A stretch of DNA of 24,586 nucleotides from positions 1 through 24,586 of the IMG/VR virus record IMGVR_UViG_3300022929_000196. One strand, 5' to 3'. Shown here piece after piece: positions 39 to 22,458 of this stretch (the stretch's first letter is position 1; each line of letters begins with the position of its first letter). The translations under genes and the position numbers were made by a program. The notes beneath the pieces are model-generated. The model searched no databases, had not been told where the DNA came from, and saw only the letters and a list, made by a program, of their open reading frames with translations. This DNA comes from a virus.

Positions 39-3000
39 TTAGAACGTATCTTTTGATTCATTGTACAATTTTATAGCTGCTTCCCACGCATCATCATCCG
101 CTATAGTACGACCATTGTTTTGTGTTCTATACGTTTCTTCTATAACCATTCTTTCTCCACTAGGTACTTTATTTAAGTATAAAACTTTTAGTGACCGATT
201 TCTTTCAGCGTCAGAAAGAACACCTGTAGCCACACCTGTATTTTCAGGGTCTAACACTATCTCACGCGCTTCATTTCTAACTTTATTAACTATTTCTTTT
301 AACTTGGCACGTTTTATTTTATCACTAGCTAAACTATTATAGTCGGGTCCAGCAATGTATCGTCCAACTTCCCTATCCATATACTCGCCCATTAAACCTC
401 TTGCCTCATTTGTCAATGGCTTATCTAATTTAATATTTTTAGGGCTTACCTCATAGTACTCAAACTTTAGTCTGTCTAGTTCTTTTTCCACATAATTTTT
501 ACTTTGTTTAGGTGTAAGACCTGTCAACTGTTTTAAGAAAGCGTTTACACTACGTAATCCACCAGAACGAGTAGGGGATTCTAACTGGTCACGTTGAGGC
601 CCAACACCCGTATAACCCATCAAACTTCCCTGCTCTTTATCGCCCGTCATTTGAGGGAAGGAGCGAGTTGCTTGTTTCAGCATGTATCCCAAGGGACTAA
701 CATCAGTGTTATCAGCAACTTGTCTGAAACGAGGATCAACTGTAGTCACTATGTCTTTTATTACACCAGCACCTACAGTATATGTATTTAAATAATTACC
801 TAAAGCCTTTGCTCCGGCTTCCCATATTAAATCTTCTGATAATCCGTTTTCTACACCGTTAATCATAACATCAACGGTGCCATCAATAATATCTAGTTGT
901 GTGCCTGCGCGACCTTGACCACCAGTCATGGCAGTGATAAATTCTTTTGCTGAGTAAGGCATATCTGATGCGACTTTATCATTGTCATGCAGTTTACCCA
1001 TACCCGGTAACTCAGGATTTTTTCTATATAGATAGTCAGCAAACATTGCAAATGCGGCAAAGGGGCCAAGAGAAGCCCTCATATCAAACAAGTCATTAGA
1101 TGTAGGGTCTTTATATTCATAAGGACCAGTGGTCTCATCTCCAAACTGACTTCTTACAGCAGCGAAAGTAGATATTAAAGCTAAACCGCTTAATTGTTTT
1201 CCGGCTCTATCAGCAAAACTAGACTTGTTTAAAACTCCACCTGCATCAATCATACCAAATATAGGCGCATGTTCATACACAAACCTGAATTGATTTACCA
1301 TATAACGTGGAAATGGTATTGCTAAAGAACCGCCTGTGGTCTGACCAAACTCAATAAAGGTTTGTGCTGCAGAATTAAATATGCCATCTTTACCTCTGAA
1401 TTTACCCGTCTGATAGGTAAAGTCTAGTGCTTTCTCCATAGCGTCTGCTAAGTTCTCTTTTGGTATTTTGTTAAAATTACCTGCCTTTAAAGTAGACGCT
1501 AGATTCTGTGCGTTGTTTGAACTTGCACGAATAGCTATGTCTAACTCACGTGCAAAAATAGCACGTTTAAACATATTGTCTGACATTGTGTTAAACGTAT
1601 TTAACTTACGCGCTAGTCCCAATAAACCTGTTTCTGCACCCGTAGTATTGGCAACATCTCCCATATCTTTAAATAGCTGCCTAGCAATCTCACTAGCACC
1701 AAATCTTTCGTCTTTCATTAGTCTAGTCAATGCGGTGGTTGAAGCTGAGTTCATACCAAGAACTAAATCTTTAAACAGTAGACCGTCTGCGCCAACTCGC
1801 ATCTGCGCACGTCCTAACTTAACTGCATTATCAGCCTGTAAAGCAGCATCACTTTTAGGTATGGTAGTTAATTTCTTTATATTACCACCAGCATAATTAA
1901 TTAAACCAGTACCCAAATTATCTAAAGTATAAATAAAATTACGCATATATCCGTTTGTTGTGTTACGAACAGTCGTGGCAGCCTGAATAGTCATCAAACC
2001 GATACGCGCTTTATTTATGTTTCTTAAACCTTCACCAGCCTGACCTAGTTTATGTATTGCTGTTTCTTCTTCAACACGGCGTAAAGCCTTACTGGTAAAG
2101 TCTCCCATATTTAATAGGCCATCGTCTATTTCATTAAATTCTACTTGTAATTTAGCTACTGCACGTTTAGCTGCACCTTTAGCTGCGCTAATTCCCCCCA
2201 GAACTTTACCTGCACGACTAGCTTCTGCGGCAATTACTGCTGAAGCATCATTAACCATAATAGTTCCTAGTTGTTCAGAGGTAACATTGTGTTCATCTAG
2301 TATTTTTTGTAGTGTATTCTTAGGCAAAACACCTTCACGTATACCTCGTGATATACGTGACGTAAATCTTTCAGCTAAATCCTCTTTACTGCCTGCTGTT
2401 ATACGATCTGTTAAACTACCTTCTTTGAGGCGTGGTGGTATAAGATGATATACCCTAGCACCTGCGGTGGCTATATTCTGAAGTAACTGTGTGTCAATTG
2501 CAGCCGTGGTGTTACTACCTCTTTTACCTAACTTTTCTGCTATCTTTGAACCTGCCGCTAACTCTTCTGGTATAGTTTCTTCCAATGCTTTTTTAGTAAC
2601 ATCATCCAGTGTTAAAGTATTCAGTATTGTCTTAGCTGTTTTTGCCTTTAATTTTGCATCTTTTTTACTGCCGCCTTTTAATATAGTCTGACTGATCTTA
2701 TTGCCTGTTTGTATAGCTTCAATGTCTTGCTTACCTGTTGCTCTTACAATCTCTTCAGCTTGAAAAGACCGGAGTGCTGATTGTGTGCCTACACCCAGTC
2801 CTACTAAAGCAGGCGCAATAGTAGACGCTAAACCAGCAAATCCCATAGCACCTAAATCAATTTCTTCTTTTACGCCTGTTTCTACACGAGTCTGTTCTTG
2901 TGCGGCTACAGTTCCTACTGCAACAGGAGCCTCTATAAGCACAGATTTACCAGCAGTCTTCATTCCTTCTTTAAGGGCTTGACGAATACCAAATTTAACG

Positions 3001-3413
3001 CTTTGCTGCGCTGCTAGCGCACCTGCTTTAGCTGCACCACCAGTAAAAATACCCGCATAAGTAGAGGGGGCTTTAAATACGCCTTCCAGATAATCACCAG
3101 CAGCAGACCAACCTAAGTCACTATCCATGTTATCAAATGTGTCCATTAAACGACCCATTCTAGCACGGGATTCATCATCAGCTTCTTGAGCATATGTCAT
3201 GTCTTTTAAAGCAGTTACTTCATTTACATTCTGAAAACGGAAGTGTTCCATGTAAGCATCGTATACTTTGTCATCAGTATCTAGTTCTTCTGGGGCATAC
3301 CCACCACGGTCAATAAGAAAGTAAGCAGCATCATTTACAAAATCTTCATCTTGCATTAATGTTTCTTTATTCAAATCTTCTGGAACATACTCGTGATATA
3401 ATGGAGTTGACAT
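39..3413 (-). CDS. Large (1124 aa) putative internal virion / ejection-type structural protein
   Basis: No enzymatic motif is evident. The protein is large and mostly helical, and it is the last gene of the late operon. An acidic N-terminus is followed by Ala/Gly-rich hydrophobic stretches, notably about residues 187-211 (GFAGLASTIAPALVGLGVG), which could contact membrane. About 468-490 holds GLMTIQAATTVRNTTNGYMR, about 608-628 SDNMFKRAIFARELDIAIRA, and about 698-715 PFPRYMVNQFRFVYEHAP. From memory, this set resembles the large polyvalent-protein-associated domain LPD38 and other very long ocean-phage virion proteins; no profile search was run. Size and position match the large internal or ejected proteins of podoviruses, so a role in DNA delivery is inferred. 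The ATG directly abuts the upstream TAA, with AAGGA 7 nt before it. No frameshift is visible. Confidence 0.7.
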   Translation of the reverse strand: MSTPLYHEYVPEDLNKETLMQDEDFVNDAAYFLIDRGGYAPEELDTDDKVYDAYMEHFRFQNVNEVTALKDMTYAQEADDESRARMGRLMDTFDNMDSDLGWSAAGDYLEGVFKAPSTYAGIFTGGAAKAGALAAQQSVKFGIRQALKEGMKTAGKSVLIEAPVAVGTVAAQEQTRVETGVKEEIDLGAMGFAGLASTIAPALVGLGVGTQSALRSFQAEEIVRATGKQDIEAIQTGNKISQTILKGGSKKDAKLKAKTAKTILNTLTLDDVTKKALEETIPEELAAGSKIAEKLGKRGSNTTAAIDTQLLQNIATAGARVYHLIPPRLKEGSLTDRITAGSKEDLAERFTSRISRGIREGVLPKNTLQKILDEHNVTSEQLGTIMVNDASAVIAAEASRAGKVLGGISAAKGAAKRAVAKLQVEFNEIDDGLLNMGDFTSKALRRVEEETAIHKLGQAGEGLRNINKARIGLMTIQAATTVRNTTNGYMRNFIYTLDNLGTGLINYAGGNIKKLTTIPKSDAALQADNAVKLGRAQMRVGADGLLFKDLVLGMNSASTTALTRLMKDERFGASEIARQLFKDMGDVANTTGAETGLLGLARKLNTFNTMSDNMFKRAIFARELDIAIRASSNNAQNLASTLKAGNFNKIPKENLADAMEKALDFTYQTGKFRGKDGIFNSAAQTFIEFGQTTGGSLAIPFPRYMVNQFRFVYEHAPIFGMIDAGGVLNKSSFADRAGKQLSGLALISTFAAVRSQFGDETTGPYEYKDPTSNDLFDMRASLGPFAAFAMFADYLYRKNPELPGMGKLHDNDKVASDMPYSAKEFITAMTGGQGRAGTQLDIIDGTVDVMINGVENGLSEDLIWEAGAKALGNYLNTYTVGAGVIKDIVTTVDPRFRQVADNTDVSPLGYMLKQATRSFPQMTGDKEQGSLMGYTGVGPQRDQLESPTRSGGLRSVNAFLKQLTGLTPKQSKNYVEKELDRLKFEYYEVSPKNIKLDKPLTNEARGLMGEYMDREVGRYIAGPDYNSLASDKIKRAKLKEIVNKVRNEAREIVLDPENTGVATGVLSDAERNRSLKVLYLNKVPSGERMVIEETYRTQNNGRTIADDDAWEAAIKLYNESKDTF

Positions 3414-4748
3414 TTAATATCCTTGAGGAATTGCTGTACCCGGATGTTTTCTTATTAGTATATTTTTTAAAGCATTTGCTTTTGCTGATCCGGGTTGTTG
3501 TTGCAGTAACTGGTCAACTATCTGTTGAGCAGCAGAGGGGGCATTAATAGCCGCTGCCCCACCGCCGGATGGAGGAGTCGTAGCAGAACCGCCGCCTGTG
3601 CCTGTATTTAATTTAAGATTACCTGATGCAGTTGTATTTGAAGGAGCCGTAAACAGTTTTGCATCTTTGTTTACCACAAACCTACCCATACCATCATCAT
3701 CAGCAGGAGGTTCATAAGAAATCATGTAATTGTCAGCAATGGCTAATTTTAATTCTCTCATTGCCGTACCATGACTTTTTATTCCGTTATCCATAATATA
3801 TTTATTTAGTAATTCTTGTAGATAGGATTGCTTTTTTATATACTCTGTTCGTTGCTTATCATCTCCAGAAATATCCGTTATTAATCCGGTTTTTTTGTCT
3901 ATCACTGTTCCTAAACCATTAGCCATAGCTAAAGATTTTCCTAGATTATCTCCGTTTTTTATAGATTTATCTGTAGTCCATTTTTCATCAGTAGATGTGG
4001 TGGCCCTAGTAGATTCCTCAATCAACATTAGTGATTGTGCTTCTGTTCTCATTGCTTCAGCTTCTTCTTTTTTACCTTTTGCTTGAAGATTATTAGCCAG
4101 CATATACAATCTTTCAGCTTCTTCTTTAGGAGTATCTAACCTACCCAACATATACTCTTTAAGATCACCCTGTAATGTGGGCGGCATTGTTTTTAATGCA
4201 TCTTCACCTGATGGCATTTCAATACCAGCAGCTACCATTTGGCCTTCAGACAACTTTTCTAATCTTTGCATAGATGCATCAGCACCACCGAACATTTTTC
4301 CAAAACCTACAGCAACACTTCCCTTAACCGAATCTAACGGGGCTAAAGATAGATACGGTGTATTGCTATCAATAAGTTGCTCAAGAGTCACACTTTTACC
4401 TGTTCGTTGAGCAAGACTAATTTGATCTAAAGGATTTAAACCTAGCTTTTGTTTTTGCGTTGCCAAATTAGCAGCAATAGTTTTTGCTCTATCATATGAA
4501 AAGTTATCAATCAGGTACTGTGCGGCATCCGTATTGCCGTCCAAGTAACTAACCATTGTTTTTATTTCTGCTTCTTTTTCTTGTCTAGTTTTTTTATTAG
4601 TAGCTTCATTATTAGCGGCACGTTCAAGGCGCAATGCAGCAAGACGACTGATGTTATCTTCCGTCTTCTCCATGTCTTCGTCAATTTCTTTTGCGACTTT
4701 ATTAGCTAAACCTGTAGCAAAACCTCTAGCAAAATTTCCACTGAACAT
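3414..4748 (-). CDS. Putative internal virion protein, 444 aa
   Basis: The N-terminus (MFSGNFARGFATGLANKVAK) is followed by a charged helical region that probably forms a coiled coil (about residues 20-70). A central helix-rich body contains a KEEAERLYMLANNLQAKGKK repeat-like segment near 210-230. A Gly/Thr/Ala/Pro-rich linker (about 370-405, GTGGGSATTPPSGGGAAA) leads to a short amphipathic C-terminal tail. I know no catalytic motif here. From memory, related proteins with the same N-terminus sit next to the preceding IPGMGMT protein in several marine phages, so it is probably a structural or ejection component. Its ATG shares one base with the stop of the upstream gene (TAATG), with a strong GGAGGT a few bases upstream inside that gene, so translation is probably coupled. 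Confidence 0.68.
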   Translation of the reverse strand: MFSGNFARGFATGLANKVAKEIDEDMEKTEDNISRLAALRLERAANNEATNKKTRQEKEAEIKTMVSYLDGNTDAAQYLIDNFSYDRAKTIAANLATQKQKLGLNPLDQISLAQRTGKSVTLEQLIDSNTPYLSLAPLDSVKGSVAVGFGKMFGGADASMQRLEKLSEGQMVAAGIEMPSGEDALKTMPPTLQGDLKEYMLGRLDTPKEEAERLYMLANNLQAKGKKEEAEAMRTEAQSLMLIEESTRATTSTDEKWTTDKSIKNGDNLGKSLAMANGLGTVIDKKTGLITDISGDDKQRTEYIKKQSYLQELLNKYIMDNGIKSHGTAMRELKLAIADNYMISYEPPADDDGMGRFVVNKDAKLFTAPSNTTASGNLKLNTGTGGGSATTPPSGGGAAAINAPSAAQQIVDQLLQQQPGSAKANALKNILIRKHPGTAIPQGY

Positions 4749-5266
4749 TAAGACCTCCGTGCCATAAGACTTGTAGACTGTTTTTCTTCAACAGGAACAG
4801 CCGCAACACTGTCTATTTTAGCTTCTAAATTACTTTCTTGCTCTTGCGTAGCTGAGTTTTTTTCTGCTTTTTTAAATTTATTTAAAGCTGAATTTAACAT
4901 TGCTTTGCTAGGCTCGTCCGTATCTTCGTCCCCTACAGTGTATTCTATACCTGCACTGTCCCCTAAAAACATAACAAATTCCATAAGAACAGGAGCAATA
5001 AGTATACCTACATCAATAGTATGTATGCCCTGCATTGCGCCAGATGTTTGAATGATATTTACTAAAGTAGAAACAGGAACACCCATCTCAAGAATGTCAA
5101 CGATTTGATCCGAAAACTCATCTACTGACAGTCTAGTAATGTAGTAATCAATAGCACCCTCTACGGTAGGGTACTGGGGTGGTGATTGCCACGGTCTACC
5201 GCCAAGTTCTGCTGTCATTCCCATACCCGGAATAGGTGCATCAAATTTCTGTTCAAGATTTTCCAT
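4748..5266 (-). CDS. Conserved marine-phage virion-region protein (IPGMGMT/RPWQ family), 172 aa
   Basis: The function is not known to me. Residues 10-35 carry the signature PIPGMGMTAELGGRPWQSPP, and then a region with IDYYITRLSVDEFSDQIVDI and a EMGVPVSTLVNIIQ helix. A hydrophobic stretch near 85-110 (IDVGILIAPVLMEFVMFLGD) could be a membrane or buried core helix. The C-terminal 60 residues are charged and low in complexity. I remember close relatives in cyanophages and pelagiphages, always beside large virion proteins, which supports a structural role. The ATG lies 14 nt inside the end of the preceding 75-residue gene, and its stop overlaps the next start as TAATG, so this sits in a tightly coupled late operon. 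Confidence 0.72.
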   Translation of the reverse strand: MENLEQKFDAPIPGMGMTAELGGRPWQSPPQYPTVEGAIDYYITRLSVDEFSDQIVDILEMGVPVSTLVNIIQTSGAMQGIHTIDVGILIAPVLMEFVMFLGDSAGIEYTVGDEDTDEPSKAMLNSALNKFKKAEKNSATQEQESNLEAKIDSVAAVPVEEKQSTSLMARRS

Positions 5267-5480
5267 TTAACATGTTCCGCTGTTTGTTTATAGCTAGAAA
5301 ATATTTTTCTACTCTATTTTTAGGTTGAAAAATATCTACATCATTGTCCATTTTACCACTTGTTTTATTTCTTGTCAATAGACCTTTTAAAACTTTTGGC
5401 TCGTTGTCTGGTTTAGTTTGACTATTACTCAGTACAGTTTGTTTCATTTTTGAATATGCAGCAATCATTTCATTAGACAT
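5253..5480 (-). CDS. Small hypothetical protein, 75 aa
   Basis: This is a short, basic and hydrophilic protein without a signal peptide or membrane segment. It starts MSNEMIAAYSKMKQTVLSN and ends KYFLAINKQRNMLNGKS. I recognise no domain. It is accepted as a gene because it fills the space between two virion genes on the same strand. AAGGAG lies about 10 nt before its ATG and overlaps the stop of the 659-residue gene, and its 3' end overlaps the next start by 14 nt. A role as a minor virion or assembly factor is inferred from position only. Confidence 0.62.
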   Translation of the reverse strand: MSNEMIAAYSKMKQTVLSNSQTKPDNEPKVLKGLLTRNKTSGKMDNDVDIFQPKNRVEKYFLAINKQRNMLNGKS

Positions 5481-5494
5481 TATGCGTTCACTCC

Positions 5495-7474
5495 TTAACT
5501 ACCAAAAACACCAAATTTACTTTTGATCCATGCGCTACCCAAAGAACCTACCAAGTTACCGATAGCAGAACCTGCCGCAGAAGAGGCTGCAGCATCCGCT
5601 GCTTGTTTACTAGCATCAGCATCTAATTGTGCTGTAGCGATTGTAGTAATACGATCTAATTCGTTTTCAGCAGATGTCCATGCCCATTCCATTGTATCAG
5701 AATAGTAACTCCATAAATTATCATATGCTTGCTTGCTGATATCTAAGATAGCATTAGCATTTAACTCATTAGCACGGTTAACCGCTGCAGTATCAGCAGT
5801 AGCAATCTGCCTACGCCATTGAGCGTTTGACTGTGCAATTACTAACTGGTTCTGCGCATTGAACTGGTCACGTTGATTATTCAGTTCCGCATTGAAACGA
5901 TTGACTGTGTTAGCTTGTCCAGCATTAAACTGTGACTGTGCATTTTGTTGTGTTGCATTAAACTGAGAAACCTGAGAAGAAAGATTAGCAAAGAACTGAT
6001 CTGTTTGGTTTTGACTTGATGCATTAAACTGTGCGGCAGCGTTAGTGGCAGCTTGATCTGTAAACAAAGACTGTACACGTTGTTGTGCTTTAAACAAATC
6101 GGTTTGCTGACGATTGGATAAGTTAGCCATGTCATACTGCAAAAAGTTCTGTGCATTTTGTACGGCAGCTTGCTGACGGTTATTCAGGTTAGCTGTATCT
6201 AGTTGCGCCAATGCTGCAGCCTCTGACATGATAAGAGCCTGCGTGTTAGACAAGTTAGCTAAATTCATTGTGTTAGCAGCACGTGAGTTCTCTAACTGTA
6301 CCTGCTGTTCTGCTGTAAAGTTCTGATTAGCTATATCGGCAATACGGGATGCATTTTGCACTTTAACTTGGAATGCCTGATCAAACTCTTGACCCATAAA
6401 TCTGGCACGTTGTTCAGCCGCAAGCATTGCTGATTGCTGCCTGTTAGATAAGTTTTGTGATTCAAACTTAGATATTGTAGCTGCATCAGCCTGTGCAATA
6501 GGCATAGCTGATTCCATAGCAGCTTGTACCAAAGCCTGACCTGCAAGAGATGACGCACCCAATCCACGTGCAGCCATTTGCGCTGTAGCATTACGCATAG
6601 CACCTGCTGCCCATGCTGGTGTAGCACCACCTTGGAACTGGTTCATCAGACCGGACAACTGATCTTGTACCATTGCCTGTTGGCTAGGATTAGCCGTAGC
6701 TGCGGCAGCTTGGGTCTGTGCTGTTAGTTGAGCAGCAGCCTGTGCGTCTACACCTGTGCCTGTAATAATTTCACCAGATTGTATCTGACGCTGTACAGGA
6801 TTGTTAATAAGTACTGCATTGCCCTGTGCGGCCTGTAGGCTGCCCACTGAAGACGCTGTTTGCTGTGCTGCTGTAATCTGTGAACGAGGGTCGCTAGGGT
6901 CTGCCTGTGCAGCTTGTGTGGCGTTCATAGCGGCATCTACCGCAGGAGCAGCTTGTGCAGCTTGCATTGTATTAGCGTGTGTCTGATTTACTGGAGCAGC
7001 CTGCGCTGTTTCAGCCATAGCTGTCGGCACTGCTATCTGACCAGTAAGCTGTCCTGTACCTGCTGCTACATCTTGCGTAGAATCATACTGCGTTGTTGCT
7101 GCAACTGTCTGACCGCCTGTTGGTAGTGCGGGGTTATACATTTGGTCTACGCTATAGTCTCCAATAGCTGGTGTCGTAGGTTGTTGTTCTGTTTGCTCTG
7201 TTGTAGTTGAATCGCCTACAGTTTCAGCTACTGCATCTATAACAGCACCAGAAAGAGGGTCTATTGATCCTGTTTCTAACCCACCTTCTTGATACTTTTT
7301 AACCACTCCACCTTTAGCCATTTGAATTGCTTGATTAGTATAGTTCTGCATTTGTTGTTGACGCATAGGGTCTTGGGAGACGTAATCTTGAAAACCTTGC
7401 ATATTTCCTTGATAACCCATAACACGTGCTATCTTTTCCATGCCACTAGGTTTAAATGCTTTAAACATTGCCAT
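5495..7474 (-). CDS. Gln/Asn/Ala-rich hendecad-repeat virion protein, 659 aa
   Basis: Residues 1-50 are helical. Residues 52-65 carry the motif MAKGGVVKKYQEGG, also seen in the 926-residue protein of this window. Residues 90-335 are low-complexity Ala/Gln/Thr. A strict array then follows. Six 22-residue units (NLSNRQQ-type) place a hydrophobic residue at 342, 364, 386, 408, 430 and 452. Eleven-residue units with QFNA cores then place Phe at 483, 494, 505, 516, 527 and 538, continuing in phase to ELNA at 570-573. Such 11-residue periodicity fits a straight or right-handed coiled coil. The C-terminus has Trp/Tyr-rich helices (585-600) and an Ala/Gly-rich hydrophobic tail (625-650). No enzyme motif is seen. 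An elongated internal or tail-tube-like structural protein is inferred. AGGGA precedes the ATG. Confidence 0.72.
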   Translation of the reverse strand: MAMFKAFKPSGMEKIARVMGYQGNMQGFQDYVSQDPMRQQQMQNYTNQAIQMAKGGVVKKYQEGGLETGSIDPLSGAVIDAVAETVGDSTTTEQTEQQPTTPAIGDYSVDQMYNPALPTGGQTVAATTQYDSTQDVAAGTGQLTGQIAVPTAMAETAQAAPVNQTHANTMQAAQAAPAVDAAMNATQAAQADPSDPRSQITAAQQTASSVGSLQAAQGNAVLINNPVQRQIQSGEIITGTGVDAQAAAQLTAQTQAAAATANPSQQAMVQDQLSGLMNQFQGGATPAWAAGAMRNATAQMAARGLGASSLAGQALVQAAMESAMPIAQADAATISKFESQNLSNRQQSAMLAAEQRARFMGQEFDQAFQVKVQNASRIADIANQNFTAEQQVQLENSRAANTMNLANLSNTQALIMSEAAALAQLDTANLNNRQQAAVQNAQNFLQYDMANLSNRQQTDLFKAQQRVQSLFTDQAATNAAAQFNASSQNQTDQFFANLSSQVSQFNATQQNAQSQFNAGQANTVNRFNAELNNQRDQFNAQNQLVIAQSNAQWRRQIATADTAAVNRANELNANAILDISKQAYDNLWSYYSDTMEWAWTSAENELDRITTIATAQLDADASKQAADAAASSAAGSAIGNLVGSLGSAWIKSKFGVFGS

Positions 7475-7477
7475 TTT

Positions 7478-7702
7478 TTAATCCCTACTTAGTACCTTAT
7501 CTAGTTTATCTTCAACACGATGCAAGGCTTCCATTACTTGCCGCATATCATCCCGCAACTCCATACGTGTAGCATATTCTTCACGTGTTTTGTTTAGTAA
7601 AATCTCTACACGTTTTTGCTCTTTAGTGGTGGTATTAGCCCACCAACCAAAACCAAATAGGATTAAACCAATAAGAGTATCTATTAAACTTGTCATATCC
7701 AT
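7478..7702 (-). CDS. Membrane-anchored coiled-coil protein, 74 aa (holin/spanin-like candidate)
   Basis: There is one hydrophobic segment at residues 5-22 (SLIDTLIGLILFGFGWWA). The rest is charged heptad-like helix, including MRQVMEALHRVEDKLDKVL. There is no lipobox and no catalytic motif. One N-terminal membrane helix plus a coiled coil resembles small phage membrane proteins such as holins or inner-membrane spanins, but no endolysin lies beside it, so a lysis role is not proven. It could equally be a virion-associated membrane anchor. It starts by TAATG overlap with the stop of the 210-residue gene, with AAGGA about 8 nt upstream, and it ends 3 nt before the next ATG. Confidence 0.65.
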   Translation of the reverse strand: MDMTSLIDTLIGLILFGFGWWANTTTKEQKRVEILLNKTREEYATRMELRDDMRQVMEALHRVEDKLDKVLSRD

Positions 7703-10221: not shown

Positions 10222-11763
10222 TTACTTTCTTCCGTTTATTGCAAATTCAATAATAATAGCATCTAGTGAAAAAGGTGGATTAATATCATCAGATGTTAAT
10301 GTTATTGATGCATTATATGCAGACCCAATTATCTGTGTTTCCAGTATGCTGTCCACGTTTCCTGAACCGTATGTTGCTGTACCATATGTAGCTGATGGTG
10401 ATCCAAACCTAGAAAAATTACTAGTGTTATTAGCTAACGGTATGATGTTTGGCTGAACAACGCCGGTATTAGCCCTGTCAAAGTCAAGTATTAACTGAAA
10501 GTCTACTTCTACTGAACCTGTTGGATCGGTGTATAAGTGTGCTTTATAAAAAGTCTTACGTAGTCTAGGGTCTTGAAAAGTCAGGAAAGGACTAGCAAAT
10601 GTTGCAAGAATGTTTTGTCCATCAAAACTAGAACCACGCTCTAATCTATATACATACCCATCATCATTAGCAAAATATATAAATTCTTCATCATCTACAT
10701 ATTCACTGAAACTTACACGTGCATTAATGCCACGAGTTTCTGCCCAAGCAAACTGACCTTCACCTATTTGTGATGCTATCACACCTAGACTAGATGCATT
10801 TGAAATACCACTTGCATAACCAAATAATCTATACTGGCTTTTGTTTCTAATTACTAAAGAGCAAAAAGCACTTGAGTTATCAACAAAGTCAGTAACCTGT
10901 GACTGAATCGGTTTTGATAAAACAGCAAGATTAAAGTCGCCAATTCTATCAGTAGCACCTAATGTACGTATACCATCCGGTCCAAGGAATACTACGTCAC
11001 CACTAACCTCTTTTGCTGTATCAGGTTGAATAGCACCCAAGTCAGTAGAGATGTCATGCAACTGAAAATCTGCTACACTATTTCCAGTAACCCGTTTAAT
11101 AACTGTTTTACCAAATACAATTAACTGCTCACGAAAAACGATTAGATCAGTTATGTCATCTGTGATGTTGATAACACCACCGCCGGTAGCTATGGTAAAG
11201 TCTGTATCTTTATACGGAGCAGAGAAAAATAAATTTTGTCCGTTAGCTAAAAACAAATGATTTGCAAACTGTACTACAAAATCACACCCAGTAAAGTCAC
11301 CACTTAAACTAGATAGCTGTGTAAGTGTTCCTGCATTGCCATCAAATATAAAAGGTCTACTAGCACCATCTACAATAAATAATTTTTCAGTACCGTCAAA
11401 ATCATATTTTTCAAATCGAACAACACCAGAACCACCTAAATTAATACCAACGCTAGAAAAAGTAGCATTGTTTGTTACTTGTGTCCAGCCGCTACCAGAT
11501 GACCTATATAATTCTGCTCCTCTTGCTGCATATACACGACCACCATAGTATGTGATACCACGAATAATACCTGAACCAGCTAATGCATTGTTGTCGTGTT
11601 TTACAAACCCTTCAATTTTTCTATAACCACCTTCAACCGAAGGCTCAAAATTAAGTAGAACTCTTGCGCTACCCGGTTGATTCATACCTTGCTGCAGTGG
11701 ACTGAGGTTAGTAATTAGCCCTTGTTTAAATTCTATGGGAAATGTATTCCATGAATCTGGCAT
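10222..11763 (-). CDS. Tail nozzle / DNA-stabilisation-like protein (beta-propeller type), 513 aa
   Basis: The N-terminus has FKQGLITNLSPLQQGMNQPGSA, and then repeated beta blades such as GIIRGITYYGGRVYAARGAE and VVRFEKYDFDGTEKLFIVDG. Motifs continue through VVFLGPDGIRTLG and YVYRLERGS, and the protein ends in a beta-rich domain. This pattern resembles phage tail nozzle or packaged-DNA-stabilisation proteins of the P22 gp10 type. Genes of that role sit just after the head-tail adaptor, as here. No catalytic motif is visible. It is the first gene after the 61-bp gap that holds the second promoter, with AGGAA about 9 nt before the ATG. The function is inferred from repeat pattern and neighbourhood. 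Confidence 0.75.
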   Translation of the reverse strand: MPDSWNTFPIEFKQGLITNLSPLQQGMNQPGSARVLLNFEPSVEGGYRKIEGFVKHDNNALAGSGIIRGITYYGGRVYAARGAELYRSSGSGWTQVTNNATFSSVGINLGGSGVVRFEKYDFDGTEKLFIVDGASRPFIFDGNAGTLTQLSSLSGDFTGCDFVVQFANHLFLANGQNLFFSAPYKDTDFTIATGGGVINITDDITDLIVFREQLIVFGKTVIKRVTGNSVADFQLHDISTDLGAIQPDTAKEVSGDVVFLGPDGIRTLGATDRIGDFNLAVLSKPIQSQVTDFVDNSSAFCSLVIRNKSQYRLFGYASGISNASSLGVIASQIGEGQFAWAETRGINARVSFSEYVDDEEFIYFANDDGYVYRLERGSSFDGQNILATFASPFLTFQDPRLRKTFYKAHLYTDPTGSVEVDFQLILDFDRANTGVVQPNIIPLANNTSNFSRFGSPSATYGTATYGSGNVDSILETQIIGSAYNASITLTSDDINPPFSLDAIIIEFAINGRK

Positions 11764-14043: not shown

Positions 14044-16935
14044 TTAATTTCCTTGTTCCAGTTGTTGTATTCTAGCTTCTAAGGCTTCGCATTTAGCGGA
14101 TAACTCTTGTACCGCTTTAATAAGTATTGGGTAAGTTCTATTCGGAGCAGCCTCCCATTTTTCTGGGTTGTCAAATGAAACCATTCTAGTTCTGTTAGTT
14201 GAACTAAAATCCATTTCAACTTCTGCTAACTCTTGTGCAATAAAGCCAATATCTTTTGTTGCACCCATAGAGCCGTCACGCCTATTCCAAGTAAATTCGA
14301 CAGGACGCATTGCATTTATAAAATCTAATCCATATGGTATGTCTTCGATAGCCGTCTTATCACGCTCATCAGACAGGCTTGATATTGAAGTCGTGTTGCA
14401 CCTCAAACTGGATATGCTACTGTTACCAAGAGTAATTGTATTTGTTGCCGAAGAAACAGGTGCGTTTGCCCCATTTCCAAGATTAGTACAGTTTGAACTT
14501 CCTGCGTAAGTACTTCCAGCATCATGTCCTACGCAGACAATAGTATTTCCAGAAGATATATTAGTTCCAGAAGTATGTCCTACGCAGACATTATTGTAAC
14601 CAGTGGTTATGGCACCGCCAGCACTATGTCCCATACATGTATTGTCATAACCGCTAGTTAAAGCATCCGCAGAGTATGAGCCAATTCCTACGTTGTCGTT
14701 TCCAGTGCCGCCAGCGTAGCCTGATCGATAGCCAACAAAAACGCAGTAATCTCCACCATCCATGTCGTAACCCGACACACGACCTACAGTTGTGCAGTAT
14801 TGACTTCCACTACTTCCACTGTACTGAGATAAATGGCCTACACTTACACCATAAGAGCCTCCCCTAGCACGATAACCTATGCAAACTGAATCGGTAACAG
14901 TACCATTCATTCCGTCAGTTTCATAACCAACCATTGTAAGATCATCACCAGTAGTTATAAAGTCGCCAGACAAACCACCGATAAAAGTACTGTAGGTACT
15001 ACCTGTAGCCGCTGTACCAGCCGAATTGCCTATAAAAGTATTATACGATGCAAATGTTGAAGGCGAATTATTACCAGCGTCCTTGCCGATGTACACACTG
15101 CTGGTCTCACCACCTTTAGATGCCTTTGTGATCGTCCCAGCGTCAGACATAAGTAAGCTGCTGCTTGACGCATCCCAAGTAAGATCGGCGTTACCAGAAC
15201 TGCTGTAGAAAAAAATGTCGCCTGTAGCATGGTCTACTTGAAAACGAGTTGAGCCAGAAGTAGCAGCATCATTGGTAGTTAGAATTGTAAATTTACCAAT
15301 GTTGTTCTGAAGTTGGGTATTTAGGTTACTTGTGTCAGTTTCAAAAAGACGTATGGTTGGATTGGTTGAAGATATTTCCATAGAACCAACATTGATATCG
15401 GCGGTTGTATTGATATCGCCGTTCCACTGCCCTGCATTGTTCCAGAGAGGGCGGTTACTAGCGATGTTCCACGAACCTGTGCTGTTGTCTGAAGCGTACC
15501 ACTGACCACCATCATCGCCACTAAAAGCAAGCAACGCGTTGTATGAGTTGTCTGACGCGTGTACCCAGCTACCATTGTCATAGTAAAGTCCAGTGGAGAA
15601 GAAAGTTTTTCCACCACTCCACGGTAATACGCCCCATACAGTGTCGTATGTTCCGCTTTTCGCTACGATTGGTGATGAACTAGCGACAGCAGACTCAACT
15701 TGTAGACCGGCACTGGTTGTAATGCCCGCGCTATTGATGTCTACGTTTCCGCTGCTTTTTACAACAAATTTGTATCCGCTATCAGCATATACTCCTAAAG
15801 CCAGCGCATCGTGAGCCGCAGTTGCATCACTGCGAACCAACAAACCCTGTGCGTTAGCATCACTTCCAGTATTATAAATTCTTGAAACCCAAGTGTCTAC
15901 GTCTCCTGTGGCATCTAAAATAAAACTAGGCGAACTCGTCCCAATGCCCACGTTTCCGCTGCTGTCGATTTTTGCGGCAAAACTGTTTCCTATGCGAAAT
16001 TCTAGCCCAGTCGATGTAAAGCCAGTATCAATAATCCCTGTGCTATTACCTGCGCTGTAGGTTAGCTTGACACCATCTGTGCCACTTCCGAAAACAGATT
16101 GACCTCTTACATCAAGGGCTTCAGTAGGCGAACTCGTCCCAATGCCAACATTACCGCTGCTGTCGATGCGCATATGTTCACTAGAGCCAGCAGCATTGCG
16201 AAATATTTTATTTTCAGCGTTTATATAAATATCACCACCGCTAGCAGCGTTAATATTAAAGTTTCCGCTGTTTGCACCACCAGTAGTAATTGTATGGGTT
16301 GCCCCTGTCCCACGACTAGATACGAAATTTACAGTAGCATCTGTCGATAATACATCCACGCCTGTGGCGCTGGTTTCAAACTTGAGGGTATTATTGTGAT
16401 AAAGGTTTACTGACGAATTTTCGTTAAATACTGCATAAGTTTGTCCAGAAGTGGTTCTGAAACGTATATCGTCTGACCCTTCGATATATAAATCACCAGT
16501 GCCATTATCTCTTACATAGCTATCACTACCATCGTGATAAATCTGCAAGTCAGACCCAGCACCGAAAATGGCCTTGTCGTTGTCGCCGAAGGTCAGGTCG
16601 CCAGCTAAAGCAGTATTCCCGCTTGCGTCTTGAAAGATGTACTTTTCAGCAGGAACGGTACAGAAAATAGTTTTGTCGCCAGCCGTCCAGTTAACCGCTG
16701 CATCAGCGTTACTAGACTGCAAAATAGTTGTTCTAGCAAGTGTTGTCCCAGAGGCTGTGTATGTACCTATTCCTACTTCAAAGTCAGCACCGCCAGTACA
16801 CACATAATAAGTAGTATTACCATCGCCTATTTCAGCAAAGGATTCAAAACCATCAGCTGCGCCAGCAAGAGTATATGTACCCGTGCCAGTTGTAGTGGTG
16901 GTTTCTTTAATCCGATCAGCGATAGTAAGGGCCAT
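14044..16935 (-). CDS. Tail fibre with C-terminal peptidase S74 chaperone, 963 aa
   Basis: The N-terminus (1-110) looks like a virion-attachment region (MALTIADRIKETTTTTGTGT, TTYYVCTGGADFEVG). The shaft has GSDLQIYHDGSDSYVRD and two copies of DSSGNVGIGTSSP. From about 610 to 850 a series of short units with cores such as NVCVGH and CVFVGYRSG resembles trimeric left-handed beta-roll heads. The last 109 residues form the S74 intramolecular chaperone: SDERDK begins at Ser855, the expected self-cleavage serine with its lysine partner. DIGFIAQELAEV and the closing coiled coil (ELSAKCEALEARIQQLEQ) follow. This domain folds the trimer and then cuts itself off. A GAGG site 6 nt before the ATG overlaps the end of the upstream gene. 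Confidence 0.92.
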   Translation of the reverse strand: MALTIADRIKETTTTTGTGTYTLAGAADGFESFAEIGDGNTTYYVCTGGADFEVGIGTYTASGTTLARTTILQSSNADAAVNWTAGDKTIFCTVPAEKYIFQDASGNTALAGDLTFGDNDKAIFGAGSDLQIYHDGSDSYVRDNGTGDLYIEGSDDIRFRTTSGQTYAVFNENSSVNLYHNNTLKFETSATGVDVLSTDATVNFVSSRGTGATHTITTGGANSGNFNINAASGGDIYINAENKIFRNAAGSSEHMRIDSSGNVGIGTSSPTEALDVRGQSVFGSGTDGVKLTYSAGNSTGIIDTGFTSTGLEFRIGNSFAAKIDSSGNVGIGTSSPSFILDATGDVDTWVSRIYNTGSDANAQGLLVRSDATAAHDALALGVYADSGYKFVVKSSGNVDINSAGITTSAGLQVESAVASSSPIVAKSGTYDTVWGVLPWSGGKTFFSTGLYYDNGSWVHASDNSYNALLAFSGDDGGQWYASDNSTGSWNIASNRPLWNNAGQWNGDINTTADINVGSMEISSTNPTIRLFETDTSNLNTQLQNNIGKFTILTTNDAATSGSTRFQVDHATGDIFFYSSSGNADLTWDASSSSLLMSDAGTITKASKGGETSSVYIGKDAGNNSPSTFASYNTFIGNSAGTAATGSTYSTFIGGLSGDFITTGDDLTMVGYETDGMNGTVTDSVCIGYRARGGSYGVSVGHLSQYSGSSGSQYCTTVGRVSGYDMDGGDYCVFVGYRSGYAGGTGNDNVGIGSYSADALTSGYDNTCMGHSAGGAITTGYNNVCVGHTSGTNISSGNTIVCVGHDAGSTYAGSSNCTNLGNGANAPVSSATNTITLGNSSISSLRCNTTSISSLSDERDKTAIEDIPYGLDFINAMRPVEFTWNRRDGSMGATKDIGFIAQELAEVEMDFSSTNRTRMVSFDNPEKWEAAPNRTYPILIKAVQELSAKCEALEARIQQLEQGN
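15927..16167. repeat. Pair of direct repeats in the S74 fibre gene
   Basis: A 22-bp perfect direct repeat lies at 15927-15948 and 16125-16146. It extends imperfectly through a second identical 14-bp block, CCGCTGCTGTCGAT, at 15956-15969 and 16154-16167. The two copies encode the DSSGNVGIGTSSP units. Conservation at the DNA level, not only in protein, points to a recent duplication or to gene conversion within the fibre. Confidence 0.85.
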
Positions 16936-19677: not shown

Positions 19678-22458
19678 TTAACCATCTCCAACACTTTCAG
19701 ACCCCTCTGTAGAACCTCCGTCCATTCCATCAAGACCGCCGCCGGTGTCATTATCATTATTGTTGTTGCCAAACTCACCACCACCCGGCGTATTCTCACG
19801 GTATCCAGAAGACACTGCTGCGGCTGCACTTGTAGCTGCTTTTTCTGCTGCCTTTTCTCTGTTCGCCATAGCCGTATCCGTTTTTTGTCTTTCAGCCGCA
19901 GCTTCTTGAGCAACCCTGTTAGCTTCAAAGGCACTTCTAAAGCGTCCTGCGTCAACAACATTTCCTTTTTTCTCTTCTTCTTCTACTCTATCTACAAGAG
20001 AACGTAATGAGTCATTTACTCTAACACGACCATCATCAGAGCCTACAATATTTTCACCATACTTATCTACAAAGTTAGCTATTTTTTCCATTTCTTTTCT
20101 GTCAGATACATTTCCACGCATCATATCATTGTAGGTTGCAGCATCTAAAACCAAATCTAATGCTAACGTCTTGTCTTGACCCAATGGAGTTGCTCTTGTA
20201 CCGGGAACTTTAATATCTGAAATAACAGCAAATTGTCCTTCTTTTAAAGATAGCTGCTCTCCAAATTTACCGTTTGTTAATCCATAAGCTAGACCAGAGG
20301 GAACATTCCCGAAGTAATCTTTTATAGCTTTTGCTGTGCCTAAAACACCTACTCCGGGCATTTCAATAGAAAATTTTCCGCTAAAAGCATTATCTACTAA
20401 ACCAGCACGTCTACCTGTTGCTTGGGTTCCACCAAAAGAAACAGTAGGCTCAGTACTTACATCGTCTTCTCTACCGCCATCACCCTGTCCAGTAACTTGT
20501 GTTGTTTGAGTTGTTACAGGTGCTACCTCTTCTTCTTCACCTTTTAATTTATAACCTTCCGGTACAGTTGCAGGATTACCAGCTAAGTCAAGAAGCTGTC
20601 CTGTCTGTTTATTTTTCTTAAATACTAAAGTTTGATTAGCTTCATTTACGTAAGTAACAGTTTCGTACTCTACGCCCTCAGGACCAAAACCTACTACGCC
20701 TTGAAACGTAGGTGTTAGTTCTTGAGGAAGACGTACCGGCGTAAACGCTTGCTGTGGTGGTTTATATCCACCCATTGGGTTAGCGGGTGCAGAAGCTGCA
20801 ACCATAGGGGCCTCAGCAACACCTGTAGTTGTAGGTGCCGAAGGCTGATAATAAACGCCGCTTTGTGGATCAGGATTTACAAATGTACCCTCTTGAGCAT
20901 AAACTACACCACCTCTTGCAAACTCTTGTGTTTTATTATACTCTTCTTCGTCTTCCATGTCAAGGTCTTCAATAGAAAATGGCAAGTCATCTGGCATAGT
21001 AGCTTCTTCACTATTGCCCATCTGACCCATAGCTTCCATGCGCTTTAGGCCCATCTTAGCTTCTTGACGCATCTTCATAAGTTTTTCAAGACCAAAGTAT
21101 CGCACTACGTCTGCAGGAAAAACAAATTCACCCTCACTAAGTTGAGCCGGAATATCATCACGTACTTCTTCTTGAGTGGAGCCGGGTGGCACTTCATTAC
21201 CAGATACAGGGTCTACTGTACCGCCCTCATCCATAAGACCGCCATCTTCAAAGCCACGTGTTACAGGCTCAAAGAGTTCCATTTGTTCTGCCATACGTTT
21301 CATAGGTACCACTCCACCTTCGTTAAAAACTCGTATTTTACCGTCTTTTGTTCTGGCTGTTTTTTGACTAAACAGTTCTTTTAGTTCTGATAACTTTGGT
21401 TCTGTTACATTTTTTGCAAGTACAAGTGGACCGATTTGAATTACTTCATCTGCACGAGTAACAACATTACCGGTTTCTTTGTTATAAAAGTAACTACCCC
21501 TGTATGGGTTCATACCAACTTGTGTCCAGCCAGAATCTTTATCTGCTAAAACTTTTCTAGCAAACTCTTGTAATTCATAAGGGTCTTCTGGTACATAGTC
21601 ACCAAATACACGGGCTATTGTCGCTTTGCCCATAGGTTTTTCTTCGCCAGATTTTTTAGCTACTCTTTTGCCTTTTGCAATATCTAAAGCAACTTCAGGG
21701 TCTGAACCAAATTCAATATTTTTTAATCTTATAGCTTGTCCATATCCAACAACAGAACCATTTCTAATCTTACCATCGTGTATAGATACAACCCACTTAT
21801 CATACTCATTATATGCAGGTATATCTAATCTAGCACCTACACGCTGACCTGGCTCCAAGTCAAATCCTTTTACACCTAAAATGCCTTTTTCTGCTTTTTT
21901 ACCCATAGACCCCACAACATCTGTTATTGTAGTCATTTCTGGCATTGTTTCAGCAGTATACAGTTGCGGTTCTGGGAATACTTCTTTAATACGCTTACGT
22001 GATTCCTTTGATGTTATATTACCTTGAAACAAATCTTCCGCAGCTTGTTGTGCTTCTGGTATGTTTTTTTGTCTTTGCGATTCTGGAAGACGGTTAGCAT
22101 CCCGCCACTCTTGTAGTTTTTCTGCATTATCTACTAATTTTTCTGCTTCACCGATATCTTTTTTACGAAATGATTTTGCTGCAGCTTTAATTGGTTTATT
22201 TAAAATGTCTCCACCGGGAAGAATACCTACACCTAATGCTGCTGTTCCTAATGCTGCACTAGTATAATTACCCTTAGATACATCACTTGCAATTTCTTTA
22301 GCCAGCATTGCTTCGCCAAGAATAGGAACATTTTCTGCAAGAGTTTTTCTGTCTTGCATTACTTCTTTTTCTGTTCGTGTTTCTTTACTTCCCATATAGG
22401 GAGCAGAAAAACCCATTGACTGCATTTGCTTTTTAGCTTTATCTGCTGGTTTATCCAT
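19678..22458 (-). CDS. Large multidomain virion-region protein, 926 aa
   Basis: Residues 1-200 are mostly helical with an Ala/Gly hydrophobic patch (65-83). Residues 205-352 look like a globular domain (VGARLDIPAYNEYDKWVVS, VVGYGQAIRLKNIEFGSDPE, SYFYNKETGNVV, ADEVIQIGPLVLAKN). I remember this pattern from large polyvalent phage proteins but cannot assign an activity. GGVV (381-384), GGLMDEGG (406-413) and ARGGVVYAQEG (514-524) flank a conserved block (413-500: GTVDPVSGNEVPPGSTQEEV, EGEFVFPADVVRYFGLEKLM) that I recall in many ocean-phage structural proteins. Residues 640-880 are Pro/Thr-rich and then globular or helical; the last 40 are Gly/Asn/Asp-rich. The ATG overlaps the upstream gene by 8 nt. 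The position between portal and scaffold suggests a head-associated protein; function unknown. Confidence 0.75.
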   Translation of the reverse strand: MDKPADKAKKQMQSMGFSAPYMGSKETRTEKEVMQDRKTLAENVPILGEAMLAKEIASDVSKGNYTSAALGTAALGVGILPGGDILNKPIKAAAKSFRKKDIGEAEKLVDNAEKLQEWRDANRLPESQRQKNIPEAQQAAEDLFQGNITSKESRKRIKEVFPEPQLYTAETMPEMTTITDVVGSMGKKAEKGILGVKGFDLEPGQRVGARLDIPAYNEYDKWVVSIHDGKIRNGSVVGYGQAIRLKNIEFGSDPEVALDIAKGKRVAKKSGEEKPMGKATIARVFGDYVPEDPYELQEFARKVLADKDSGWTQVGMNPYRGSYFYNKETGNVVTRADEVIQIGPLVLAKNVTEPKLSELKELFSQKTARTKDGKIRVFNEGGVVPMKRMAEQMELFEPVTRGFEDGGLMDEGGTVDPVSGNEVPPGSTQEEVRDDIPAQLSEGEFVFPADVVRYFGLEKLMKMRQEAKMGLKRMEAMGQMGNSEEATMPDDLPFSIEDLDMEDEEEYNKTQEFARGGVVYAQEGTFVNPDPQSGVYYQPSAPTTTGVAEAPMVAASAPANPMGGYKPPQQAFTPVRLPQELTPTFQGVVGFGPEGVEYETVTYVNEANQTLVFKKNKQTGQLLDLAGNPATVPEGYKLKGEEEEVAPVTTQTTQVTGQGDGGREDDVSTEPTVSFGGTQATGRRAGLVDNAFSGKFSIEMPGVGVLGTAKAIKDYFGNVPSGLAYGLTNGKFGEQLSLKEGQFAVISDIKVPGTRATPLGQDKTLALDLVLDAATYNDMMRGNVSDRKEMEKIANFVDKYGENIVGSDDGRVRVNDSLRSLVDRVEEEEKKGNVVDAGRFRSAFEANRVAQEAAAERQKTDTAMANREKAAEKAATSAAAAVSSGYRENTPGGGEFGNNNNDNDTGGGLDGMDGGSTEGSESVGDG

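Follow-up and report, generated by a model that had tools for sequence, protein, structure and literature searches.

An 11-residue helical repeat array in a marine podovirus protein that changes length only in whole units, and its possible place in DNA ejection

What might a phage do with a protein in which a long stretch repeats every 11 or 22 residues? The question is raised by a protein of 659 residues encoded in a virus record of 24,586 bases, the whole of which was analysed and is referred to here as the window. All major ORFs of the window lie on the minus strand, in the order portal-like protein (24551-22596), 926-residue protein, 301-residue protein, coat protein (18473-17391), tail/fibre genes, and then proteins of 659, 75, 172, 444 and 1124 residues. 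The coat protein matches the P22-type coat proteins of HMO-2011 and the Roseobacter CRP phages at 76-82%, and the 659-residue protein matches the hypothetical protein phage1322_25 (gp25) of Puniceispirillum phage HMO-2011 at 65.6% identity, with 99% of the protein covered. As both proteins match HMO-2011, the window is assigned to an HMO-2011-type marine podovirus, of which it is a fragment; the gene order round the 659-residue gene is also that found round HMO-2011 gp25, so that full-length homology is accompanied by synteny. Scans of the 659-residue protein against PHROGs, Pfam and NCBIfam gave no matches. The protein, which we call the array protein, is divided as follows.

5495..7474, minus strand: 659-residue array protein, homologue of HMO-2011 phage1322_25 (gp25)
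7316..7450, minus strand: N-terminal small helical domain, residues 9-53 (FKPSGMEKIARVMGYQGNMQGF...MAKGG), AlphaFold2 pLDDT about 90
6479..6613, minus strand: N anchor, residues 288-332 (ARGLGASSLAG...MPIAQADA), non-repeat and conserved family-wide
6056..6451, minus strand: 22-residue repeat part of the array, residues 342-473, consensus LSNxQQxxLxNAQxxxxMDxAN
5831..6055, minus strand: Phe-x10 part of the array, residues 474-548, QFNA units, with F538 the final Phe of the track
5630..5830, minus strand: C anchor, residues 549-615 (SNAQWRRQ...NLWSYYSDTMEWAW)
5510..5593, minus strand: Ala/Gly-rich C-terminal tail, residues 628-655 (AAASSAAGSAIGNLVGSLGSAWIKSKFG), weakly hydrophobic, in the place where relatives have other modules

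The array protein (5495-7474) has near its N terminus a motif, MAxGGVVxxxxxGG, that is also found in the 926-residue protein near the portal (19678-22458, minus strand) as ARGGVVYAQEG and may be a targeting or processing signal shared by the two.

The initial annotation placed an array of 22- and 11-residue spacings at 5738-6451, which on the minus strand does correspond to residues 342-579 of the ORF, and both spacings are present: residues 342, 364, 386, 408, 430 and 452 are L, F, F, L, L and L, and residues 483, 494, 505, 516, 527 and 538 are all F. The Phe track had been thought to stay in phase to residue 571, but it ends at 538, with Ser at 549, Ala at 560 and Leu at 571. Nor do the two hydrophobic tracks share one register, the series 342 to 452 falling on hendecad position 1 and the Phe track on position 10, although they are two tracks of one lattice. 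Compared with itself, the window array has an identity of 0.27 at an offset of 22 residues, 0.21 at 11, 0.23 at 33 and 0.23 at 44; over 2,000 shuffles, the best offset had a 99.9th percentile of 0.21. Fourier analysis of the large hydrophobic residues of the array against shuffles gave p = 0.002 for the 11-residue component and p < 0.0005 for 11/4. The array is real, and stronger than first reported. The replacement of charged residues by Gln and Asn was likewise confirmed, Gln and Asn making up 31% of 137 representative arrays and Asp, Glu, Lys and Arg 14%; proline and cysteine do not occur in 37,171 array residues, and Gly accounts for 1.4%. Hydrophobic positions of the 22-residue unit are L1 (91% hydrophobic), [LVMI]9 (94%), [MLVI]18 (77%) and [LM]20, together with A12, and its amide positions are 5 (Gln/Asn in 88%), 6 (80%), 3 (72%), and 11 and 22 (about 70%). 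In the final 75 array residues, position 10 is Phe, position 7 Ile/Val and position 1 Ala.

In a true hendecad coiled coil the hydrophobic residues should follow a period of 11/3. In the family profile this period is not significant (p = 0.46 in the 22-mer part and p = 0.14 in the Phe part) and the dominant hydrophobic component is 11/4 (p = 0.03), so that what survives of the hendecad rule first proposed is a strict 11-residue rule, kept in homologues, and not a simple 11/3 seam. When the unit is drawn as a helical wheel of 11/3 period, one face holds positions 1, 5, 9, 12, 16 and 20, and the opposite face position 18 with positions 3, 7 and 10 of the Phe part. Since the single-face moment is not significant and the 11/4 component is, we infer that the array helices have two contact faces and do not form a simple two- or three-stranded coiled coil. 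The same geometry bears on a reading of the array as a membrane-coating 3-11 amphipathic helix that would cover lipid or LPS at entry, comparable to perilipin 4, the apolipoproteins and alpha-synuclein. Perilipin 4 has long helical arrays of 11-mers in which charges are few and uncharged polar residues abundant (PMC5889406), and a chain of dimeric apoA-IV ranks third, without significance, when the array model is searched against the PDB with Foldseek. Such helices, however, have a single hydrophobic face at about 98 degrees per residue. In the array the component at that angle is weak (0.08, compared with 0.15 at 130 degrees), and position 18 is on the side away from the main face; a membrane coat is therefore very improbable.

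AlphaFold2, applied to a single chain (the packing of copies is outside the reach of such a model), predicts helix at residues 309-359, 366-383, 388-449 and 454-650 with low-confidence breaks between them; pLDDT is about 75-88 over the Phe part but lower, about 50-65, over the 22-mer part. The long helical region anticipated from the repeat is thus recovered as a near-continuous helix over residues 309-650 at moderate confidence, in keeping with the lack of proline in the arrays. A beta-solenoid, which had been raised by the 2.2- and 2.75-residue components, was dropped given the AlphaFold2 helix, the missing proline and the scarcity of Gly. Searching PDB chains with the family profile returned nothing at E <= 10, the solved phiX174 H tube included, and Foldseek found no significant PDB match to the array model, the lowest E-value being not below 2.4. 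In BFVD, Foldseek recovered the family itself and, at non-significant E-values, a 'DNA transfer protein' and tape measure proteins. The initial claim that no structure of this type had been described therefore holds at the level of sequence matches to the PDB, but a tube of similar design is known in phiX174 H.

The relatives of the array protein show how strictly the 11-residue rule is kept. Homologues were collected from six viral-contig scans, one genome scan and named phages, giving 314 distinct proteins, and array length was taken as the distance between the HMM-placed non-repeat anchors (window residues 288-332 and 549-615). Array length takes 14 values (139, 150, 161, 172, 216, 304, 326, 414, 436, 524, 546, 634, 656 and 766 residues), and all 314 homologues are congruent modulo 11, with no pattern modulo 7; 12 of the 14 lengths differ from that of the window by multiples of 22. 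Long clades change in steps of 110 residues (5 x 22), as in the series 216, 326, 436, 546, 656, 766 and 304, 414, 524, 634. As controls, the flanks show no such preference: the 163 lengths of the N-terminal segment and the 52 of the C tail are evenly spread modulo 11. The anchor tree implies at least 31 changes of array length, a rough figure, the tree being built on 112 residues, and in one pair with near-identical anchors (L250 and L235) the arrays differ by exactly one unit, QFNATLDNQRQ. Homologues that keep their length and lose the period would, by the initial annotation, have refuted the array reading; the reverse is found: length shifts, and only by units of 11.

Could the rule lack structural meaning, and reflect nothing beyond unequal recombination among repeated DNA in the gene of a low-complexity protein? 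In L394, which has the longest array, a tandem duplication of 330 bp can be seen in the DNA, so unequal recombination is one route by which units arise, and self-identity at 110 residues peaks (0.59) in the longest arrays. Yet the window array has no detectable tandem repeat at the DNA level, and both close and distant relatives stay in register while the flanks accept indels of any length. Recombination would account for the origin of units but not for the absence of out-of-register indels from 314 arrays, and the amide and hydrophobic positions are conserved, so that we consider recombination by itself quite unlikely as an explanation. Because out-of-register indels are absent from the arrays though both flanks take indels, the data point to selection acting on array register.

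Several further observations concern the ends of these proteins and their surroundings. The N-terminal segment before the N anchor ranges from 88 to 1,117 residues and contains differing modules, among them DUF4214 in L401 (5954-10078), as if this end of the family were exchangeable. An extra C-terminal module, CWVAREVYG...FRxWLxYDAPKWxxxLYxKHGxxxAKFI, is present in 48 of the 305 complete homologues (e.g. L045, L058 and L064) and, within the named-phage collection, in HMO-2011 gp25 only. Upstream of the array gene of L394, the phage with the longest hendecad array, lies a separate 72-bp (24-residue) tandem array of about eight copies (L394:3304-3929). A compact relative of 326 residues, sharing the N anchor and the Phe-x10 QFNA units, is encoded in a Luteibacter MAG contig (L173:7479-8459), directly after a phrog_10775 tail gene and a 1005-residue ORF, and the family therefore extends to gammaproteobacterial (pro)phages.

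A virion setting had been proposed for the array protein, and its gene does sit in a virion gene module, with the following neighbours.

7478..7702, minus strand: 74-residue ORF with an N-terminal hydrophobic helix, directly upstream of the array gene
5253..5480, minus strand: 75-residue ORF between the array gene and the 172-residue partner gene
4748..5266, minus strand: 172-residue partner protein, candidate membrane/pore protein, hydrophobic segment 84-102
3414..4748, minus strand: 444-residue protein, putative gp15/gp20-like ejection protein by position and size
39..3413, minus strand: 1124-residue protein, putative gp16-like ejection protein by position and size, predicted nearly all helical

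The family of the 172-residue protein, which has the most hydrophobic stretch of the block (residues 84-102, Kyte-Doolittle 2.07), is found downstream of the array gene in 292 of 314 loci, and many of the remainder are truncated contigs. Comparison of HMO-2011, CRP-1, CRP-3, HTVC115P, HTVC033P, phiM6, RHph_N3_19, CHOED, MQM1, Slicky01 and a spring-water phage gave a kept order, in which small genes vary somewhat, of stopper/hub genes, variable tail or lysis genes, array gene, a small gene, and genes for proteins of about 170, 450 and 1100 residues. Published analogues of gp14, gp15 and gp16 lie in one operon and have 181-240, 431-982 and 609-1337 residues in that order (PMC8954989); the 172-, 444- and 1124-residue proteins follow the same order, with 172 just under the published range of 181-240. 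Profile searches of the PDB with the 1124-, 444- and 172-residue neighbours gave nothing meaningful. The AlphaFold2 model of the 1124-residue protein (pLDDT 74, pTM 0.69) had a best Foldseek E-value of 0.067, and T7 gp16 is not among its fold matches, which is no evidence against likeness to gp16. A resemblance of this model to the SmhB alpha-pore toxin was set aside, the VIA-align Z of 8.1 over 78 residues being below the level that the tool treats as meaningful for helical proteins.

Elsewhere in the window, a 513-residue hub-like protein (10222-11763, minus strand) has its best match to phrog_5107 'amidase' and also matches head-closure families (phrog_578 Hc3), and a CHOED tail-module gene of similar size is labelled 'dimodular nonribosomal peptide synthetase'; the enzyme labels look misleading. 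A 963-residue fibre-like protein (14044-16935, minus strand) ends, as judged by eye, in an apparent S74 intramolecular chaperone (DERDKTAIEDIPYGLDFI...).

The position of the array gene also bears on the proposal that the protein is a tape-measure-like helix in the tail or portal channel, setting the length of a tail part or of an injected tube, with Phe every 11 residues as a marker. In long-tailed phages there are tape measure proteins with [FW]-x10-[FW] units of 11 residues that undergo unit duplications and losses (PMC3271669); the Phe track and the modulo 11 rule look alike, gain and loss of 11-residue aromatic units is seen in the arrays too, and tape measures are among the non-significant BFVD matches. 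Against this, CRP-1 to CRP-3 of the group are short-tailed (PMC6918029), the gene lies beyond the tail genes and adjoins the cassette, and 59 members gave no tape measure match in PHROGs, Pfam or NCBIfam, one of the 59 having a weak match to 'minor tail protein' (E = 0.005). We regard a tape measure as unlikely.

A further indication comes from the C terminus of one clade. In the CRP-3 clade the array proteins carry a C-terminal Peptidase_S74 domain (PF13884; score 28.5 bits, Pfam cut-off 22), which within the family is confined to this clade and is absent from the array protein of the window. S74 domains usually assemble trimers. For this reason a real share of the probability stays with the alternative of a homotrimeric coiled-coil fibre, whisker or tail needle outside the tail, in which the array would be the shaft, the N-terminal region a docking or binding module and S74, the chaperone of endosialidase, a trimer chaperone in the one clade that has it. 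The spread of N-terminal segments from 88 to 1,117 residues, with DUF4214 in one member, and the variation in shaft length between 139 and 766 residues are as in fibres. The array core, however, has nearly invariant Gln and two opposite hydrophobic faces instead of one seam, the gene is linked to the 172/444/1124 cassette and not to tail-fibre genes, and S74 is found at the end of ejection proteins too, so that a fibre, while a serious alternative, is on the whole improbable. The ejection proteins concerned are annotated as DNA injection or ejection proteins in phages 7-11, GAP52, APT65, H6/1 and AH02; in the first four of these their genes stand at the start of the ejection genes, and the array gene likewise stands at the head of a putative ejection cassette. 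The homologue of 7-11 gp20 in phage SU10 is SU10_022, and gp20-24 of SU10 are present in the virion and gone after genome release (PMC9509320). Outside S74, hhalign found nothing above the reversed control between the array family and ejection proteins of the gp7/7-11-gp20 type. The hhalign result also led to rejection of a likeness, seen by eye, between the N anchor and the GxxGSSRxG motif found in gp7-like proteins, and a link of the array to phrog_6121 'virion structural protein' vanished once S74 was removed. As no homology can be demonstrated outside S74, the link to S74 ejection proteins is one of position and of a terminal domain in one clade, and not of family membership. No virion proteomics of a family member turned up in the literature searched.

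At a probability of roughly 0.5, we propose that the array protein functions as an ejection (pilot) protein; its helices would be packed into an extended conduit or rod that resembles the phiX174 H tube, and its gene adjoins a cassette of gp14/15/16 size. That the steps are of exactly 11 residues suggests a helical component built with precision, within the apparatus by which phage DNA is delivered across the cell envelope. The protein would be made late, packed in the virion and released with or ahead of the DNA, and its array, as a very long alpha-helix, would associate side by side with other copies through its two hydrophobic faces and Gln/Asn ladders. The resulting rod or tube would prolong the short tail through the envelope and would work in the manner of the phiX174 H hendecad tube with its amide lining, alongside the 172/444/1124-residue proteins. 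Only whole units of 11 residues (or 22, or the 110-residue block) would be gained or lost, because neighbouring helices must keep register. There are precedents: in phiX174 H the hendecads QKELTKMQLDN, QKEIAEMQNET and QKEIAGIQSAT place Asn, Gln and Arg towards the lumen of a DNA tube (PMC7354561), and the podoviral ejection proteins DEV gp72:gp73 and T7 gp15 refold into helical conduits. The weak point of the conduit reading is that, as one straight helix, the arrays span 21-115 nm (32 nm for 216 residues and 115 nm for 766), which exceeds what the periplasm needs; the longest arrays may cross more than the periplasm, fold back or form an external shaft. It is possible, if doubtful, that the array is a molecular ruler of short-tailed phages: a two-faced, amide-laddered alpha-helical rod or tube, with a reach fixed in 11-residue quanta and tuned in each phage to the envelope or surface layer to be crossed. 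We hold just as tentatively that the 110-residue (16.5-nm) block would be its usual step, and the whole a new DNA-conduit architecture convergent with the phiX174 H tube and with tape measures.

Whatever the function, the modulo 11 rule is a strong physical constraint, and models must account for arrays that span a fivefold range of sizes and have changed length at least 31 times, always in register. If the array is a conduit, the adaptation of DNA-delivery tube length to the host becomes testable in podoviruses, a question mostly open outside the T7, P22 and N4 groups, and the 14 natural length classes are a ready-made series for this. The prediction is sharp, and HMO-2011-type short-tailed ocean phages are very abundant.

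How does the array protein compare with known systems? Helical phage proteins built from 11-residue units are already known as a kind. The cassette of T7 (gp14-gp15-gp16) is approached by the neighbours of 172, 444 and 1124 residues, which broadly resemble its analogues in order and size without a meaningful sequence or fold match, and to which the array protein would add an extra member with no clear T7 counterpart. With the S74 DNA ejection proteins (7-11 gp20 / phrog_4287, SU10 gp22 and H6/1 gp17) it shares a gene that precedes other ejection genes, a helical, Gln/Asn/Ala-rich composition and, in the CRP-3 clade, S74 itself; the protein in the window lacks S74, there is no homology beyond that domain, and in S74 ejection proteins of phiEco32-like and P22-like phages the lengths between motifs are not limited to one class modulo 11, unlike the arrays. 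Perilipin 4 and the apolipoproteins have comparable giant 11-mer helical arrays with larger super-repeats (33 residues there, 22 and 110 here), but the array has no single amphipathic face. Tape measure proteins (Belcaid et al. 2011, PMC3271669) have the same [FW]-x10-[FW] units and duplication or loss of whole units; they set tail length in long-tailed phages, whereas the array gene belongs to short-tailed phages, lies outside the tail-tube genes and has no match to their families. The phiX174 H protein has three hendecads followed by heptads in a decameric tube of 170 A, and differs from the array protein, which has up to about 70 units of 11 and two hydrophobic faces, belongs to a dsDNA podovirus and gives no sequence match; the two are alike in their Gln/Asn-rich 11-residue repeats, predicted to be helical in the array, their few prolines and the DNA-delivery context proposed for them (PMC7354561).
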